This document shows positions 4,130-38,508 of a stretch of 64,000 nucleotides of DNA, one piece after another. Made by a program: the position numbers and the translations under genes. Each line of letters begins with the position of its first letter. The stretch's first letter is position 1. This stretch comes from Diphasiastrum complanatum (Eukaryota > Streptophyta > Lycopodiopsida > Lycopodiales > Lycopodiaceae): NCBI GenBank assembly GCA_029204225.1, contig CM055096.1, positions 77,490,580 to 77,554,579 of the forward strand, written 5' to 3'. Under the pieces are notes generated by a model. It ran no database searches. It saw nothing but the letters and a program-made list of their open reading frames with translations, and had not been told where the DNA came from.

Positions 4130-7100
4130 GTACCGTCTATTTTGTTTATGTCTTTTGTATCGTGTATTCCCCTTCATCTAGTAGAATGAGAAGCCATGTG
4201 GTGTAGCATATTAACTCATTAAGTTACGGAAGTGCTGTAAGTTTTAAGTTGAGATGTTTTTCTGCTGGCTAAGTCCTTCCATTTCATCTTATTTTGGTTT
4301 CAGTACGGACAACTCTATTAAGAATCATTGGAATAGCACTATGAAAAAAAAGGTTGACCCCACTTCGGCAGTGGATCCTATATCAAAAGCTCTTGCAGCA
4401 TACCAATCACAACATGAGACAAATTCTAGTTGTCCATTGGAGGCACGACCACCATTTTGTCCACTACCTTTGGAAGGCCATGTCCCTCAGCTGAACAGTG
4501 CAAGCACAGCTTCTGCGTCAGTGACCTTTGTGGAAGCCCTTACTATCCACACCCCTACTATCGATGCTTTGGTTAGGGTGACGGAATCTTCTGCTCATGC
4601 CAGTAATGAGCAGTTTGATACCTTTAAGGTGGGAAGTTCTGAAATGACATCACCCCCTATGTTTGAGAACGTTGGTAGGGCAAATTTCCGTCTGGACTCA
4701 CTAGTTTTGCAGAAAGCACTTTCGAAGCCACCTCATCCAACAAGCGGAATGACCTCACTACCAGGTTTACCATCACTACTCTCAGGAATGAGCCAGATCT
4801 CTATGTCTAAGGTGCTTTCTGACTGTACGTCTGGATTGAGTCCTGAGCGAGCATCTTACGACTATTGCACTTCTGTAAATACTGCAGATATTAACCTGCC
4901 CTTAATCTCTTCCCAAGCTATGGTGGATGCTGAATGCAGCATGGGCCTTTGTGAAGAATCACCGTCATCACTGATGTCTTTATTGTCTGATAGTCCTGTT
5001 GGTCCTACTTCATTGGCTCTTACAGCCTCAGTAGGCATGAAGCATAACAGCTTGTTATCTTCGACTTCAGTTGATATTGAATGTGGAAGTGTGGGTTCAC
5101 AAATGGAAGAGTCTCCAGGGAACATCCTTATTCATTGTTTAGAACCAGTCATTAACTTATTAAATAACACAAAAATTGGACATGATCAAATAGCAGAGAC
5201 TGAGGTGAGTCAGTACAAAGATGAACTAGTAAGGGCTGATGAGGTAAGCACGTCAACAGCAGTTTCCTTTTGTTCATCAGAGTCAGTTTCTCTTGAACAT
5301 CAGACTTTTACTAGTCCGGAATTATTATTTTACCAGCCACCTCGCTTAACCAGTTCCGATCTTCCATTTTTGAGTTACGATCTTATATGTCCCAGCAATG
5401 ACTCAAATGAGGATTACAGCCCTCTGGGTGTCAGGCAGATGATCATGCCTTCTCTGAATTGTACCACTCCTTTTGGTTATGCTATAAACTCTCCCTGGAT
5501 AAAAAAGACTCCTCAGCAGAAGCTTAAATATGCTGCGAGAAGCTTTGGTGTCACTCCTTCCATTATGCGAAAACGGCCTAGGCCACTGCTAAGCCCTTTG
5601 TCTGGAGCTTTGCAAAATGATCAAAAGCAAGAGCCAAATGATGCAGCTACGAGTAGTGAAGGTGCTGAGGGTAATGGCTCTGATGGTACTGTTTCATGTG
5701 AAGCTAAAGGATCCATTGAAAACTCTGCTGGGAAACAGACCGTTTCTTTTCGAGAAGATTCCTCAGTGGTTGGAGGATGCAGTAAAGCTTGTGATGGTGT
5801 AGCTCTGTGGGTATCTCCTCCTTATAATCTGACAAGCAAGAGTGTAGCAGTCATCAATGTGGATGACAATGGGAGTGATGACTTCAGAAGACTGCGAAAC
5901 AGATACCAAATATGTGCAGAAGAAATCAATGCTGAAGAACTTGGAACCAAGAGCCCAGGTGTATCCATTGACAACCTGGCAGACAAGGCACCTTCAAACA
6001 AGAGATTTGAAAGCAATATAAGAAAGTCTTCCAAAAGAGGGAGAGCTGCACGACTAGTTCAACAGAGGCCTGTGAATGGTAAACTGAATCTGGACCAGGA
6101 CTATAAGATCAAGGTACTCTATCTCACTACGAGTTGTATATTTTATTGTAGAACTTAAGAGTTGATATTATTGTACCCTACTTATGTTAAATTAATGCCA
6201 TACCTGCATCGGATGCAACATTGTTCTGGACAGCAGAATGCTGTCTGGAAAGCTATATTTTATGTTATTTCTTGTACTAGAAATAGGAAAAAACTATCTC
6301 AAAGCTGCTTTCTAACATTGAAACCAGATTTTTTTAAGTTCTCAAAGAATTTGCAAACAATGAGAACAAAAAACAACGAAAAATAAATGCCGCTTTCATC
6401 CTATACTTTGGCGGCTTTCTCAAACAGTGAAACTAGGGTTGTACAGTCCCAAATTTTTTTTGGATATAAAATGAATTATCTGGCGTTATTATTGGCTTTC
6501 CGACAATTTGAATGACAACTTATAATATAATTTTTCTGGATACGCGGATTTCTAAGGACTTTGCACCAACAACAAATGTTAGACTAGTCACTCACTAGCT
6601 TGCTAAATTGATCGAAATGCTAACCAAATGCATATGGATTCAAAAGAAACTTGAAACTTGGTCAGATACTTGCACAATTTGTAAACGATCCGTACAACAA
6701 GTTGATAAATGCATTTAATCCATTCACAAATTGCATATACATCAAGCTTACAGCACAATCCCTACACACATGTAGAAGAGAGCCAATAATAAATGATAAT
6801 ATTTCACTAGACTTCTCTAAATCTCAAACGAACTTTGGCTCAACCTTTCTCCACATCCTACCTGCTATTTATAGCTGAAAGATATGACCCTCTCTTTGTA
6901 GAGCCATATACCCTAACTACTGGGCCAAAACTAGCTATATTGGTGAATTATGTTTATGTAATTTGATCTTACATGTGAAAAAACCGTGAGAAGTTAATTA
7001 TGAAATTTGGCCTCTAAAATGCCTAAAATAACCAAAATAGATCATTACTAGTTGACAATATTTTACATCTACTTTGATGACTTTGGCTGTAATTTGACGT

Positions 7101-31864: not shown

Positions 31865-31906
31865 TGTTGGAATATCAATCCACACTCTAGAGAGAACTAT
31901 CAAATA

Positions 31907-31984
31907 GGGTGGATAGCTCAGTGGTAGAGCATCTCATCCGGTATGAGGGAGGTCCTGGGTTCGAATATTAGCCTGTCCATCCAT
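31907..31984 (+). other. tRNA-like pol III promoter in TRIM LTR 1
   Basis: The A box TAGCTCAGTGG (31914-31924) matches TRGYNNARNNG fully. The B box GGTTCGAATAT (31958-31968) matches 9 of 11. The segment folds as a near-cloverleaf. The acceptor GGGTGGA pairs with TCCATCC (7/7 with one G-T), the D stem is GCTC/GAGC, the anticodon stem is TCTCA/TGAGG and the T stem is poor. Four or five extra bases sit between T stem and acceptor, and position 33 is C rather than U. It is therefore a tRNA-derived promoter rather than a working tRNA. Confidence 0.68.
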
Positions 31985-32171
31985 ATTATGATTTATGGAT
32001 TTTTAACGCGATATCAGAACCAAGTTAGACCTAATAGTTCATGGTGTCAAAGCCATGGTTAGGTGGCCCAAGTTGTGGGGCAGGTGACAGCTAGGACCCC
32101 AACCAAGTGTGGCTTGAGGGGGGGGGTGTTGGAATATCAATCCACACTCTAAAGAGAACTATCAAACAGAG

Positions 32172-32255
32172 TGGATAGCTCAGTGGTAGTTAGAGCATCT
32201 CATCCGGTATGAGGGAGGTCCTGGGTTCGAATCATAGTCTGTCCATCCATATTAT
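32172..32255 (+). other. tRNA-like pol III promoter in TRIM LTR 2
   Basis: Same arrangement as in LTR 1, with an A box at GATAGCTCAGTGG, a 4-base insertion (TAGT) enlarging the D loop, and a better B box GGTTCGAATCA (10 of 11). The T stem is also slightly better than in LTR 1. Confidence 0.62.
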
Positions 32256-32266
32256 GATTTATGGAT

Positions 32267-32838
32267 ACATCATTTCATTCTATTTCCTTGATGCTAGGTC
32301 CAAAGGTACTGACATTATAGCTTGCTAGAAAGCTAGAAGAGTCTACTTTCCAGTGCAATTAGTTTCAATTCATTCTGATGATCCTAGTAGGAGTTATTAG
32401 CTCTTAAAGACGGGTAGGGAGAGACCCAAAACTCGAGTGGACACTTTTTGATTTGAATATATTGCATGCATGATTAATCATTCACAGTTTTTTGTACTCA
32501 ATCAAAGATAGAATTGGATAAGACAAGTTTCTGTTGTCATAGTCACATCATTTCACACAAATGATTGTGTTTGAGTTGCATGTGTGTTTTTGAGTGCTTT
32601 TCATTCATTTGAAATTCATGAAAAAATTTGACATCAGAATTGTCAGTGCTTCATCAGTAATAGAGGGTAGATCCAAATTCAAGTTGATTGGTTCTTTGTA
32701 GTGAGCAAGATCTCACATAGCTGTTGCAAGATTTACATAGGATTTGGTAGTACCCAATTGTTTTGGTTCCTATAGTGAAAGAGAAGCAACACATTCAATT
32801 CCATTTTGTTGTCCAATTTACAAGGAGTCTTCACATTC
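32267..32838 (+). other. Leader of a copia element lacking its 5' LTR
   Basis: The sequence from ACATCATTTCATTC onward matches, in inverted orientation, the leader at 36640-36905. There it connects through about 190 more bases to a primer-binding site and LTR. Here the LTR, primer site and first part of the leader are gone, and the leader abuts the TRIM directly. Confidence 0.65.
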
Positions 32839-34230
32839 ATGGCATCTATAGGAGATTTTCTCTTTGAAGCTAGTGAGAGACTAGATACCTCCAACTATTC
32901 AGTTTGGAAGGATATGATAGAATCTTTGTTGGTTCTTTATGGTGTAATGGACATAGTATTAGGAATTGAAGTTGAACCTGAAGCTTGTGATGAGGCTCAA
33001 AGGTTCAAGAAGAGAGCAAGGATTGCTCTTCATATTGAACATCTATGATGAGATGTTGAGAGAAATAAGTTCATGTACCTCAGCCAAGCAGACTTGGGAA
33101 ACCCTTAAGAACTTTTTTGAAGCAAAGTTCACATCAAGACTTCTTACTCTTAGAAATCAAATCTTTTCTAGTTTTCAAAGAGTTAATGAAAGTGCTTCAA
33201 GTTTTGTAATGAGAGTTAAAGATCTTCACAGAGAGATACCATGCATAGGAGATACTCTAGAGAATAGTCAACTTGTTCAAGTAGTCCTTAATGGACTTAG
33301 AGAAGAGTATGCAAATGTTGTGCAAACTTACGCTATCATGAAGGAGTTACCATCTATGGAGGCTTTGCATGATGTTCTTATTGCTAAAGAATGCAGGCAA
33401 AAGAACAAGATGCTGAAGATCAACACACTTTCAAGGAAGGATGGTGATTGTGGCAAAGCTCACTTTGCCAAGGACAAGTCAAGAGGGAGGAGCAAGAACA
33501 AATACTCTCAAGCCTTCACCAAGGACAAATCAAAGGACAAAGCAAAGGACAAAGACCAAGGAGGAGTAGAAGATGATTCAACTCATTCTTCTATCTTCAA
33601 GAAGAAGACTCAAGAAAATCAAGCCAATTTTACCATAGAAGACTCACATGCAAGTGAAGGAGAAGCATCTCTCATGATGCCTAGTTTCTCCTCTTTACCC
33701 TTCAATGATGTAACTTGGTATATTGATAGTGGAGCCACAACTCATATGAGTTGCTCAAGAGTTCTTTTATTTCTATTGAATCTGATCAAGGACTTCAAGA
33801 ATCAATATACATTGTTGTTGGTGATGCATGTTCAATTGAAGGAGTTGGAATTTGTTCCTTGAATCTTGCATCTTCTATGAGTTTATCACTTTCCAATGTA
33901 CTTTATGTTCCTAATCTCGATGTTCATCTTTCTTTATCAGTAAGCAAGGAAGGTGTCTCTTGCTTTGCATTTACTATTAACAATTGGCTATGTCTTGTCT
34001 CTTCAAGTTTCATGATGCATGTGTATTTTCCATTATGCAAAGCTTTTTGGAGTTATGGAGCTATTGGAAGGATTGCACTATATGGAGTCTTGTTCAACTA
34101 TAAGCCTAAGGTTGTGTACCTTAGTGTTCTTGAAGGTTATTGCTTTGCATGTGTTTTCTTGGAAGCAAGGATGGAGATCCAAGCTTATGGATCATGGTTG
34201 GATCCTTATCCACCAAGGAAGGCTACATAG
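32839..34230 (+). pseudogene. Ty1/copia Gag-protease, two frameshifts, no RT
   Basis: The start is the ATG at 32839, whose product opens with a typical copia Gag (FEASERLDTSNYSVWKDMIE). A one-base shift near 33045 moves the frame. It continues DEMLREISSCTSAKQTWE, RLLTLRNQIF, QLVQVVLNGLREEYANVVQ, then a Lys-rich linker without a clear CCHC knuckle, and the protease core WYIDSGATTHMSC (about 33717-33755). A second shift near 33755 leads to GVGICSLNLASSMSLSLSNV and LYVPNLDVHL. After about 34000 similarity ends; integrase, RT and RNase H are absent up to the 3' LTR at 35274. It is related to the Gag at 42248-43384. Confidence 0.82.
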
Positions 34231-35273
34231 CCTTTATACTCTTTATCTCGAAGGTGTTTGAGCATGGAGATTTTATTGATTTTGAAGATCTATTTTCAAC
34301 CTTGGAAGGGGCCAAGAGCAGTGCATCTCAATATGCATCACAGTTAGTTTCTTTTGCAGAAAGCCAACTTGTGGTGGGTCGAGGTTTGAGGAGGAGTATC
34401 CTCAACGTGAATGTTCAAGATCATCTTCATTGTACAAGGCCAAGTCCTTGTTGTTCTTATTTCATGGAAAAGAAAGGATAAGTGAAGGCGGTATATATTC
34501 TATTGTACTCACCTATGTTTCTCTTTTTTTGGTTGATGTTGTATCTTGCTTAATTGAGACCTGCTTATCTCAAAGATTAAGTAAGACTATAGTTTTGAAT
34601 GAAGTCTTTAGTTTGGAATTAATTCTTGTCATTGGTGACTTGATTATGTTTCCAAAATATCTAGAAAGCAAGATATCGTATCATCATTTGTGTGCTCTTA
34701 AATTGAGTAAGAGCAAGAATGAGTTTAGTACTCATAGTTTGGAAAAAGGAGTTTTTTCATGTTTTGAGGCATATTGTAAACTTCTTTTGAGAGTAAGTGA
34801 AACATCCAATGAGGACACTTACATCCTTAAGAAAGTATTTAGCCTCAATGAGATTTTGGTTTCAAGATTAGATCCATTTTGGATAGAGTTCATAGTGTTT
34901 GGACTAATTAAGCTAGTGTGCTTAATCTTGAATATTGCTCATGGTATAATCTTGATCTATATGATCTTTGTGATCATGATGAGGCATGGAGGCCTCGAGT
35001 TTTTCAGATTCTTATGCAGCCATCTTCATGCATGTGGACTTCTCAAATCTGAGATCAGTATCAAGCATGGAGGAGGCATATCGACATAGTGGCAGATTGG
35101 TGGAATATTTTTTAAAGGCATTTGGAAAAGATTTCTATCAAAGAGATCTTATCGTGGATTTGGTAAGCGTGCTGCTATGATGGATTCTTTGGATCTTCAC
35201 TTCAAATGCAAAGCAAAGAATTCACACACAAAGGATATTCATCAACATCATATAGATATATTTTAAGGAGGAG
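34231..35273 (+). other. Non-coding interior of the deleted copia element
   Basis: Overlapping open frames (34140-34481, 34430-35089) show no integrase, RT or RNase H motif. A segment at 34980-35018 reappears inverted at 36605-36637. A polypurine tract AAGGAGGAG lies at 35265-35273, directly before the LTR. Confidence 0.5.
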
Positions 35274-36133
35274 TGTGAAGAATTGTAAAACATATCTATC
35301 TTACGTATGTTGATTTTGGGGGTTCTACCCATGTAAATTGATTGTACATATTCAAGGTGTGTGAATTGAGCACATATCCTTGTAGAATAGGGCGAGTTTG
35401 GATTAGGTAGATCAAATTCCATTGACATGCAAAATGTTTAGTTGATCTAGTATGACATGCAACAATGTTCACAATGTCTAGAGTGACATACATGTAGATT
35501 CACACATAGAATTGGTCAAATATGGACTTGGAGGAACTCGAGCTATATCAAATCCATTGTGTCCTAAGTTTCTATTGAGACATGCATAACATGCAAATAT
35601 AGTAATGGACACATGCAAGTAGAATTGTAGGTTCATAGTTGAGAAATTGACTTCTGGAGAAAGTAGGTAGAAGTTAGGTTCAATTTCTGCATGCAAGCTG
35701 TTAGGTGTCAATATGGTGGTAGTTTACACTTGATTAGGTGTAGGAAATGCATTGAATGCTAGTAGTACCATGAGCTAAGGCCCTCCTATATATGTACATA
35801 TGGTTCTCATTCATTTCTAATGATGAAGCAAGCTTTGGTAAGGTCATAATGTCAAAATTGGATCTCATGCTATTTTGCTTGTAATTGTATTCTCTTTCTA
35901 ATTCGAGATTGGTGTCTTCTTCATACATTATTATGCTTATGTATTTTTCCTATTTGTGAGGAATTAGTGTTGCTTTGATCTGTAGCATTTTAAATTGTGC
36001 TCTAGCCTCAAATCTGTTGGTAGATTGTAGTATTACTCTGCAGGTGATTTGTGTGCCACCATAAAGCATGGTAAAGATCATTCACACTTTTGTTGTGGTT
36101 CCCCACATGTGTGAAGTTGCTGGATTTTTCACA
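35274..36133 (+). repeat. Copia LTR (860 bp) followed by a primer-binding site
   Basis: It begins TGTGAAGAATTG after the polypurine tract and ends TTTTTCACA at 36133, with TGATATCAGAGCC right behind. It therefore serves as 3' LTR of the element to the left and as 5' LTR of another unit to the right. The inverted partner is at 37106-37632. Confidence 0.8.
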
Positions 36134-37632
36134 TGATATCAGAGCCATACCATGCTTTGAATGCTACTAACATCAGGTGTGTGAAATTTTTTTCGACAAT
36201 TCAAGCTAGAAAGTTGTTTAGCCCTTTTTTGTTATCTATTCTTGAAATTTTTTTGGATCAATGAGAACCATATGTACATATATAGGAGAGCCTTAGCTCA
36301 TGGTACTACTAGCATTCAATGCATTTCCTACACCTAATCAAGTGTAAACTACCACCATATTGACACGTAATAGCTTGCATGCAGAAATTGCACCTAACTT
36401 CTACCTACTTTTTTCAAATGTCAATTTCTCAACTATGAACCTACAATTCTACTTGCATGTGTCCATTACTATATTTGCATGCTATGCATGTCTCAATAGA
36501 AACTTAGGACACAATGGATTTGATATGGCTCGAGTTCCTCCAAGTCCATGTTTGACCAATTCTATGTGTAAATCTACATGCATGTCAATCTAGACATTGT
36601 AACACATAAGAATCTGACAAATTCGAGGCCTCCATGCCTCATCTTATCCAATTCTATCTTTGATTGAGTACCAAAAGCTGTGAATGATGAATCATGCATG
36701 CAATATATTCAAATAAAAAAGTGTCCACTCGGGTTTTGGGTCTCTCCCTACCCCTCTTTAAGAGCTAATAACTCCTACTAGGATCATCAGAATGAATTGA
36801 AACCAAGTGCACTGGAAAGTAGACTCTTCTAGCTTTCCAACAAGCTATAATGTTAGTACCTTTGGACCTAGCATTAAGGAAATAGAATGAAATGATGTAT
36901 TTTGGTTTTCACATGTGTGAAAAGTCAGAATTCCATACATCCTCTGTTCTGGACTAAAAATATCAGTTGTAACCTCATTGATCCAAAAACTGTTCAAGAA
37001 TAGATAGCAAAAAAGTGCTAAACAGCTTTCTAGCTTGAATTGTCAGAAAATTCTTCATACACCTGATATTAGTAGCATTCAAAGCATGGTATGGCTCTGA
37101 TATCATGTGAAAAATCCAGCAACTTCACACATGTGGGGAACCACAACAAAAGTGTGAATGATCTTTACCATGCTTTATGGTGGCACACAGATCACCTGCA
37201 GAGTAATACTACATTCTACCAACAGATCTAAGGCTAGAGCACAATCTAGAATGCTACAAATCAAAGCAACACTAATTCCTCACAAATAGGGAAAATACAT
37301 AAGCATAATAATGTATGAAGAAGACACCAATCTCGAGTTAGAGAGAGAATACAATTACAAGCAAAATAGCATGAGATCCAATTTTGACATTATGACCTTA
37401 CCAAAGCTTGATTCATGATTAGAAATGAATGAGAACCATATGTACATATATAGGAGAGCCTTAGCTAGTGGTATTACTAGCATTCAATGCATTTCCTCAA
37501 GTTACCACCATATTGACACCTAACAACTTGCATGCAGAAATTGCATCTAACTCTACCTACTTTCTCCAAATGCCAATTTCTCAACTATGAACCTACAATT
37601 CTACTTGCATGTGTCCATTACTATATTTGCAT
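36134..37632 (-). mobile_element. Inverted, internally deleted copia derivative fused head-on to a leader
   Basis: 36134-36262 is a plus-strand leader stub. From 36263 the strand flips. 36263-36604 is antisense LTR, 36605-36637 is 33 bases of antisense 3' interior, 36638-37092 is antisense leader, 37093-37105 is the primer-binding site (minus-strand TGATATCAGAGCC), and 37106-37632 is antisense LTR cut off where LINE sequence starts. Gag and pol are entirely missing. The junction at 36262 falls in AATGAG, present in both parents. Confidence 0.7.
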
Positions 37633-38508
37633 GCAAGGTTCTTAAGCAGGAAGGGCCATTTGAAATGAAAAGAACAACCAAAAGAAATGAGGTTTTTCAA
37701 AATTGGTGAGGGTTGGAGCAAAGAAGGAACACAGTCAATGAGGCGATATAAGAAAGCAGAAACGCTTGCCAATGATGAACAGGATGCAGAAGAGAAGAAA
37801 GGCGACGAAGCACCAAAGAGCAATTTTTAAGGGTGGGGTCTAGAATACCCAGACCACCATCCACAATAGGAGCATAAAAAACACACCAAGAAAGAAGTGG
37901 ACGCTTCCCAGCCTAGTGGAAACAATGAAGAGATTTGGAGAGGGCGTTGTGAAGAGAATGAGTAGCCACAAAGAGAGATGAAAAGTAAACTGTATAGGTC
38001 AAAAGAATATACCTAGCCACCAAGACTCTTGAGGGAAAAGACATAAAATGTGGATCCCAAGAGGCCAGCTTGGCAGCGAGGGAGTCCAGAAACTAGCGGG
38101 AACGTTGGGCGGAAGTCAAGTGAATACCAAAAGGAATACCAAGAAGACGAGTAATCGTGCCATGAGGAACCACTCGGATACCTAGAGTGGAAATCCAGAG
38201 GGGAGTGGAAAAGGAAAGAACATGAAGCTCAGACTTGCATTTATTGAGAAGGGAGGAGGATCAATAGTAGAATTCTTCAAAAAGAGAGAGGAGGTAACAA
38301 ACATGTGCCTCAGCAAGAAGAGAAAGAAGACTGACATCATCAGCAAAAAGTTGATGAGGAAGAGGACCCGCGAGTGAAAAGACAGGAGAAATAAGACGAG
38401 CAGAAGCAAACCGGTGGAAAGCACAAGAAAGAGGCTCAGTAGCAATGGAAAAAGCATAGGCGAAAGAGGACAACCTTGTCGAATGGCACAAGAAGGGAAG
38501 AAAGGGAA
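37633..38508 (-). pseudogene. Plant LINE reverse transcriptase fragment
   Basis: The minus strand shows LINE RT palm motifs: AIRQGCPLSPMLF (about 38450-38490) and HQLFADDVSLLSLL (about 38320-38365), where FADD is the catalytic aspartate pair. Further LINE RT and connection sequence runs down to about 37640, with FGIHLTSAQRSR-like blocks in shifted frames near 38090. Both ends are cut by LTR elements: antisense copia LTR at 37632 and an LTR fragment at 38509. Frameshifts abolish function. Confidence 0.78.

Follow-up and report, generated by a model that had tools for sequence, protein, structure and literature searches.

What kind of element is formed by the two short direct repeats at positions 31865-32266 of this window (the whole 64,000-nucleotide stretch of Diphasiastrum complanatum DNA analysed here), and what is the role of the tRNA-like segment in each repeat? 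The earlier note, made from the window alone, had read the locus as a miniature LTR retrotransposon (TRIM) with a pol III promoter in each LTR. Based on comparisons within the window's own genome (1.74 Gb), we consider it probable that this is a non-autonomous TRIM, belonging with the LTR retrotransposons, that its LTRs contain a type-2 pol III promoter derived from a tRNA (making it a Helenus-type TRIMp3), and that copia elements aid its copying. The window holds a decayed, 3'-truncated copy from a TRIM family of about 404 bp, with the following features:

31865..32266, + strand: TRIM copy without the last 8 bp of its 3' LTR and the target duplication, from sequence comparison with other copies
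31865..32008, + strand: 5' LTR, 144 bp, TGTTGG..TAACG, with TAACA as the usual end in other copies
31907..31979, + strand: tRNA-like unit of the 5' LTR, scoring 25.9 bits with the Rfam tRNA model (cut-off, 29), against as much as 53.0 in other copies
31914..31924, + strand: A box TAGCTCAGTGG of the 5' LTR, exact in the sequence
31958..31968, + strand: B box GGTTCGAATAT of the 5' LTR, 44 bp downstream of the A box start
32009..32126, + strand: interior, 118 bp, between both LTRs
32009..32022, + strand: decayed primer-binding site (PBS), 11 of 14 bases of TGGTATCAGAGCCA, from comparison with other copies
32116..32126, + strand: polypurine tract (PPT) GAGGGGGGGGG in the sequence, adjoining the 3' LTR
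32127..32266, + strand: 3' LTR, 140 bp, with a 4-base D-loop insertion and the final 8 bp (TTCTAACA) gone, from comparison of copies
32169..32245, + strand: tRNA-like unit of the 3' LTR (ARAGORN tRNA-Pro(cgg); Rfam 26.4 bits)
32176..32186, + strand: A box of the 3' LTR, exact in the sequence
32224..32234, + strand: B box GGTTCGAATCA of the 3' LTR, from the sequence
32265..32523, + strand: unrelated repeat outside the TRIM, starting at its point of truncation; an inverted copy lies at 36642-36900

The layout described in the earlier note was recovered in full: direct repeats of 140-144 bp, which align in two ungapped blocks at 95 and 96% identity, enclose an interior of 118 bp, and a decayed PBS and a purine tract lie at the repeat borders. 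The primer tRNA for TGGTATCAGAGCCA is presumably initiator tRNA-Met (iMet). The A and B boxes were also found where they had been placed, with the A box exact in both LTRs; the consensus for the B box is GGTTCGANTCC. The 3' end of the window copy is lost and the copy has no target duplication (flanks AGCGA and TCATT). Within it ARAGORN called a tRNA in the 3' LTR only, and Rfam at its curated threshold reported no tRNA anywhere in the window, the two scores listed above, both under the cut-off, having been obtained at a lax threshold.

When the genome was searched with the 402-bp element (best 40 of 1188 candidates scored), at least 42 matches were found, and the 41 besides the window copy were 93-95% identical to it over all or nearly all of its length. 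Allowing up to two mismatches, a 25-mer from the LTR end occurs at 1778 genomic places and one from the anticodon arm at 1542, while the reversed control of each occurs at none; the 1778 LTR-end places against zero exclude a chance origin of the repeat. We examined 40 copies with their flanks (the window copy, L001, and L009-L047), which were chosen by the search as those nearest to the window. Comparison of the window copy with the 39 other full copies gives the true LTR as 144 bp, TGTTGG...CTAACA. The first LTR starts with TGTTGGAATATC in 38 of the 40 copies and the last LTR ends with TTCTAACA in 33, the PBS is complete at 14/14 bases in 36, and all 40 have a G-rich tract that extends up to the 3' LTR. 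In the majority of copies the LTR has 144 bp, the interior 116-118 bp and the whole element about 404 bp. Two short LTRs and a total below 1000 bp place the element in the TRIM size class, and it is without coding capacity, as judged by length alone.

Target duplications and solo LTRs, both expected of a TRIM by the earlier note, were found among the full and partial copies. Leaving aside the window copy and seven copies with repeated flanks, 32 flank-independent copies were available, of which 23 have exact 5-bp target duplications, five match at 4/5 positions and four have none. Displaced control pairs matched at 5 bp in 1 case of 1600. Since these 40 copies were the search's closest, a second sample was picked by LTR end; its seven two-LTR copies gave an exact duplication in four cases, a 4/5 match in one and none in two. 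The median identity between the two LTRs of a copy is 97.9% for the best-match sample, and the second sample (n = 7) ranges from 93.1 to 97.9%. Solo LTRs bearing target duplications were found at five loci (L085, L062, L131, L132, and L150). One of these, L062, and the full copy L024 are paralogous loci with identical flanks on both sides, a pair that we read, from its sequence, as the footprint of LTR-LTR recombination. Copies with three LTRs also occur: L034 is an array of LTR-interior-LTR-interior-LTR within a single target duplication (GTCTG), and L021 has three LTRs with flanks that do not match. One further copy, L017 (C12:22352563-22353958), is inserted within the apparent primer site of another element, with the target duplication GAGCC.

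The tRNA-like unit accounts for 73 nt of each LTR. In 14 loci the Rfam tRNA model gave 29 LTR matches, 26 of which reach the 29-bit cut-off (best, 53.0), the window's two remaining below it; for comparison, host tRNAs score 42.2-75.2 bits among the best 63 places listed. No Rfam match to 5S rRNA was listed at E up to 1 in the LTRs of the same 14 loci. The ARAGORN calls are mostly Thr or Pro and waver between Pro, Thr, Ile, and Ser. Over 101 LTRs, pairing is kept in 97.0% of cells in the acceptor stem, 97.8% in the D stem and 97.0% in the T stem. In the better-kept copies the acceptor strand GGGCGGA pairs 7/7 with TCTGTCC without any insertion, showing that the 4-base insertion formerly placed before the 3' acceptor strand was an artefact of register. 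The stems proposed at the outset stand for the acceptor (7/7) and the D arm; the anticodon arm does not follow, being irregular, with 11 nt vs. 9 in the model in the two tRNA alignments shown. The C reported at position 33 holds only under an assumed anticodon stem of 5 bp, and neither the regular anticodon arm nor the U33 of a functional tRNA gene was found. As far as its sequence allows us to judge, the unit is tRNA-like in its acceptor, D and T arms but unlike a decoding tRNA. The acceptor, D and T parts are those that matter for TFIIIC and for end processing. None of the 20 host tRNAs compared (of 63 scored) could be named as its parent, the best reaching about 71%; the nearest were Gly-tcc (52/74) and Thr-tgt and Arg-cct (52/73 each), varying with the TRIM copy. 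The 101 LTRs made no case for covariation, with three isolated double changes, two of which keep the pair.

The LTR majority has the A box TAGCTCAGTGG and the B box GGTTCGAATCC, which fit the TRGCY..YGG and GGTTC boxes of Helenus/TRIMp3. Based on this anatomy and on the example of Cassandra, we infer with good grounds that pol III is used. A CAA triplet lies 4-6 nt upstream of the tRNA-like unit, and such triplets within 10 nt upstream, which are frequent start positions in plants, are reported for 36% (ANA) and 45% (dicot) of tRNA genes in the part of that study available to us (PMC11700998); the triplet here may thus lend weak support to a pol III start. Exact LTR heads starting at LTR positions 41-43 with foreign sequence upstream occur at eight places in four contexts and those starting at the CAA (position 37) at one place, the stringency of the two patterns being different. 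The 5' truncations among the examined loci start at many positions, one alone at 42.

Some LTR ends of the family run into other elements, copia among them. We hand-picked, from 100 of the 1778 LTR-end places, 38 LTR ends without an exact neighbor about 260 bp away, and in eight of these the TRIM LTR is followed by a foreign PBS. A script had flagged ten; L129 and L159 were rejected on reading as damaged TRIM interiors. Two of the eight (L158 and L164) are near-copies, 98% identical over 801 bp, and another (L134) is an LTR fragment of 63 bp. Genome-wide, a TRIM LTR end followed by the PBS and then by a base absent from the TRIM leader occurs at 96 exact places. Dropping leaders that could be TRIM variants, one base off, left 67 of the 96, with 18 four-base leader types in 44 position clusters, a cautious count in that the foreign leader of L170 is among those dropped. 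Leader types are not equivalent to families: the leaders AGCTACC (L173) and AACTACC (L174) continue alike, so that at least two types belong to one copia family. The leader AACTAC is common to 13 of the 96 places, 12 of them on contig C5, and the composites may largely be later copies of a few events. Twelve of the 96 places were read, along with three more units of an array on C10; 11 of the 12 are foreign and one (C2:20485958, L154) is a TRIM variant.

Three composites, L168, L170, and L173, were read to both outer ends, and L146, L169, L172, L174, and L171 were read in part. In L168 (C2:31006700-31013100) the order is GATAC, TRIM LTR, copia interior, copia LTR, TRIM interior, TRIM LTR, GATAC; both TRIM LTRs are 100% identical to the family majority LTR and to each other over 144 bp, and the copia part encodes gag_2, Pol_BBD, gag_pre-integrase, integrase (rve), and RVT_2. 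L170 (C1:2051000-2058500) is ordered GGATT, copia LTR, TRIM interior, TRIM LTR, copia interior, copia LTR, GGATT. Its ORFs gave only a sub-threshold match to Pol_BBD, and we call it copia because it matches copia fragments of the window at about 33500-36140, one of which encodes gag_2. L173 (C4:39254400-39260900) has the same order within AAGCA duplications, with ORFs of 737 and 590 aa containing integrase and RT domains, and the last 12 bases of its left copia LTR are those of the TRIM. L168 and L173 share one copia family and L170 represents a second; in L172, read on one side, a TRIM LTR is joined to a third, with gag_2 and integrase (rve). The junctions thus lie at or beside the shared iMet PBS (12-14 bp) in at least three copia families. 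A composite enclosed as a whole by a single target duplication must have been inserted as one cDNA, and L168, L170, and L173 are direct evidence of co-reverse-transcription of TRIM and copia. On this basis the TRIM may depend on copia for its mobilization.

Not all joined loci are of this form. In L147 (C1:40946000-40952000; 420-567 and 5239-5400) the final 63 bp of the copia 5' LTR are identical to the end of the TRIM LTR; the left end of the copia 5' LTR is missing and the 3' LTR continues differently, without a TRIM piece. L171 (C10:31626900-31631400) comprises four tandem places spaced 971, 997, and 971 bp apart, in which TRIM LTR positions 42-144 and the PBS lie inside a copia-like unit, the TRIM piece and the tRNA-like unit having the same first base. 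The sequences on either side of this piece were assigned by eye, rather than by domain search, to a leader and a pol end of copia. Neither L147 nor L171 fits a simple scheme of joining at the PBS. The L171 segment starts at LTR 42/43, possibly because the RNA has its true 5' end there, which RNase P cleavage may have generated. In L146 (C1:6355000-6361000; 339-477) a PBS and then an unrelated interior come after a 91% TRIM LTR, with no second LTR found within 5.5 kb. Pfam gave no match in the ORFs searched from L146 (two ORFs), L169, and L174.

How else might these data be explained? A tandemly duplicated tRNA-derived SINE was the alternative named in the earlier note, and a single LTR does resemble a tRNA-type SINE in size and head; none of the 40 loci run through ARAGORN lacked a tRNA call. 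Against this stand the retention of the LTR-interior-LTR arrangement with PBS and PPT at its borders, the target duplications fixed at 5 bp, the TG..CA ends of the LTR, the solo LTRs with target duplications, the composites joined at the PBS and the lack of a poly(A) or poly(T) tail between LTR end and duplication in the copies examined. The pattern that would speak for a SINE, namely a tailed tRNA-like unit standing by itself, did not occur in these copies. The exact tRNA-like head with a non-TRIM context upstream occurs at only eight places in the genome, and an abundant SINE sharing that exact head is therefore absent. We therefore rejected the tRNA-derived SINE class, based on the ends, the fixed duplications and the absent tails of the copies examined, as extremely improbable, and the preference of the earlier note for a TRIM is upheld. 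A more serious contender, though still unlikely in our estimation, is that the tRNA-like segment is a passive relic and that pol II, starting from U3, makes an ordinary retrotransposon transcript. TRIMs of the pol II type are the rule, and the unit has a degenerate anticodon arm. Measured over 101 LTRs, conservation of the A and B boxes does not exceed that of other positions (mean deviation 0.0203 vs. 0.0159 for random positions; P(lower) = 0.81). The promoter thus gives no sign of selection, although this is a weak test when the copies are mostly young dead copies. Most LTRs also have no T4 terminator, the longest T stretch being TTT, as in the TTTCT just before the LTR end: TTTT is absent from 35 of the 40 copies, as it is from 56-60% of dinucleotide shuffles, so that selection against T4 was not found in this comparison, and TTTT lies within 20 bp of 11 of 20 host tRNA genes. 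On the other side are the well-scoring cloverleaf in most of the sampled LTRs, the exact A box, the 44-bp spacing, the CAA just before the unit, and a U3 that measures merely 42 bp upstream of it.

The composites, too, can be accounted for in another way, namely by DNA recombination, outside the particle, between elements that had been inserted separately. There is precedent for this, as recombinants are commoner than template switches in the Triticeae complexes (20 vs. 2 in the portion of that report available to us; PMC1950507) and Wukong arrays are ascribed to unequal crossing over in the accessible part of their description (PMC4528315). However, L168, L170, and L173 have matching 5-bp duplications, which two independent insertions would not, and a junction homology of 12-14 bp at the PBS, found with at least three copia families, is short for chromosomal recombination. 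We accordingly regard DNA recombination as improbable, and strand transfer at or beside the shared PBS as the simplest path to the composites.

For a TRIM with a pol III promoter that is copied by copia, the following course can be proposed. Pol III would start in the 5' LTR at or just upstream of the tRNA-like unit, at about LTR position 37-43, read through the element beyond the point where R begins in the 3' LTR, and stop later. The RNA would enter copia particles, where copia reverse transcriptase, primed by tRNA-iMet, would copy it, and copia integrase would insert the cDNA. Because the TRIM and several copia families share a primer site, template transfer at the PBS is possible: a growing cDNA strand that changed from a TRIM to a copia template, or the reverse, at the PBS or just beside it would yield composites, and the same transfer between two TRIM molecules would yield tandem arrays. 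Beyond this, we tentatively suggest, as an idea with clearly less than even prospects, that TRIM RNA is a regular passenger in the particles of several copia families and that plus-strand transfer at the shared iMet site is a recombination hotspot allowing serial hopping. A strand carrying the copied template and the 3' end of the primer would bring a new PBS to the next template, and repetition would produce TRIM arrays as well as chimeras with a copia coding region between tRNA-promoter LTRs, such as L168. If serial transfer at the PBS is true, the tandem arrays of TRIMs would follow from one defined reverse-transcription step, and arrays and composites alike would keep one target duplication and have their junctions at the PBS.

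Elements of this kind are already known. The earlier note was right to propose a capture parallel to that of Cassandra, but this family is not the first such case: TRIMs with tRNA-like LTRs were named Helenus by Kojima in 2024, with examples from fungi, animals and one plant in the part of that account available to us (PMC10886601). The same part proposes TRIMp3 for TRIMs with pol III promoters, infers their pol III transcription as we do, and has them mobilized by autonomous LTR elements, which in fungi are copia (PMC10886601). Its sole plant family, Helenus-1_SMo of Selaginella moellendorffii, has an LTR of 120 bp and an interior of 85 bp (PMC10886601), as compared, by description, with 144 bp and 116-118 bp in most copies here. 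The present family is another plant family of the same kind. Its 1778 LTR-end matches may be set beside the 5575 LTRs given for a zebrafish Helenus family in the available part of that paper, in which no mention of copia recombinants like those found here was seen (PMC10886601). Among titles and abstract openings in the open-access literature, we found no later reports after Kojima. The present work therefore adds a large and abundant plant family of tRNA-promoter TRIMs to the Selaginella one.

Cassandra, in what we have of its description, is likewise a small non-autonomous LTR element with the pol III promoter of a small-RNA gene in its LTRs and tandem LTR-interior arrays, but it has 5S rRNA and conserved terminators where the present family has a tRNA-like unit and mostly no T4 (PMC7215508). 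The newer part of our findings is the TRIM-copia composites, which lie outside the window; a narrow literature search found no prior description of such composites joined at the PBS, and the recombinants deserve a study of their own. The composites resemble the complexes of Sabot and Schulman (2007), each a single insertion with a 5-bp duplication in which two elements were fused during reverse transcription; unlike ours, those in the part of the report available to us pair similar Angela, Squiq or Opie elements, with a proposed switch at R (PMC1950507). The present composites instead unite a TRIM with unrelated copia families at or beside the iMet primer site. Arrays of LTR-interior-LTR-interior-LTR with one target duplication were described for TRIMs in many plants by Gao et al. 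(2016), whose main text does not contain the word tRNA (PMC4717578). Multi-LTR forms with target duplications appear in the available portion of a report on pear TRIMs (PMC4668562), and recombination within the Onsen family of Arabidopsis in that of another (PMC5668417). Larger relatives were identified by sequence similarity for 11 of 289 TRIM subfamilies in the available text of Gao et al. (PMC4717578). Reading the elements fused at the primer site offers a way of naming a TRIM's likely helpers without such similarity.

Two further observations concern neighboring sequences. The combination of TTTCTAACA and the PBS with non-TRIM leaders occurs at 326 exact places, GCATG and GCGTG being common among the matches listed, and based on these sequences the LTR terminus of the TRIM may be common to other element families. 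Within the window, a copia LTR region with a TGATATCAGAGCC primer site is surrounded, at positions 35471-37634, by duplications of 94-96% identity that are nested in one another and include both inverted and direct ones.
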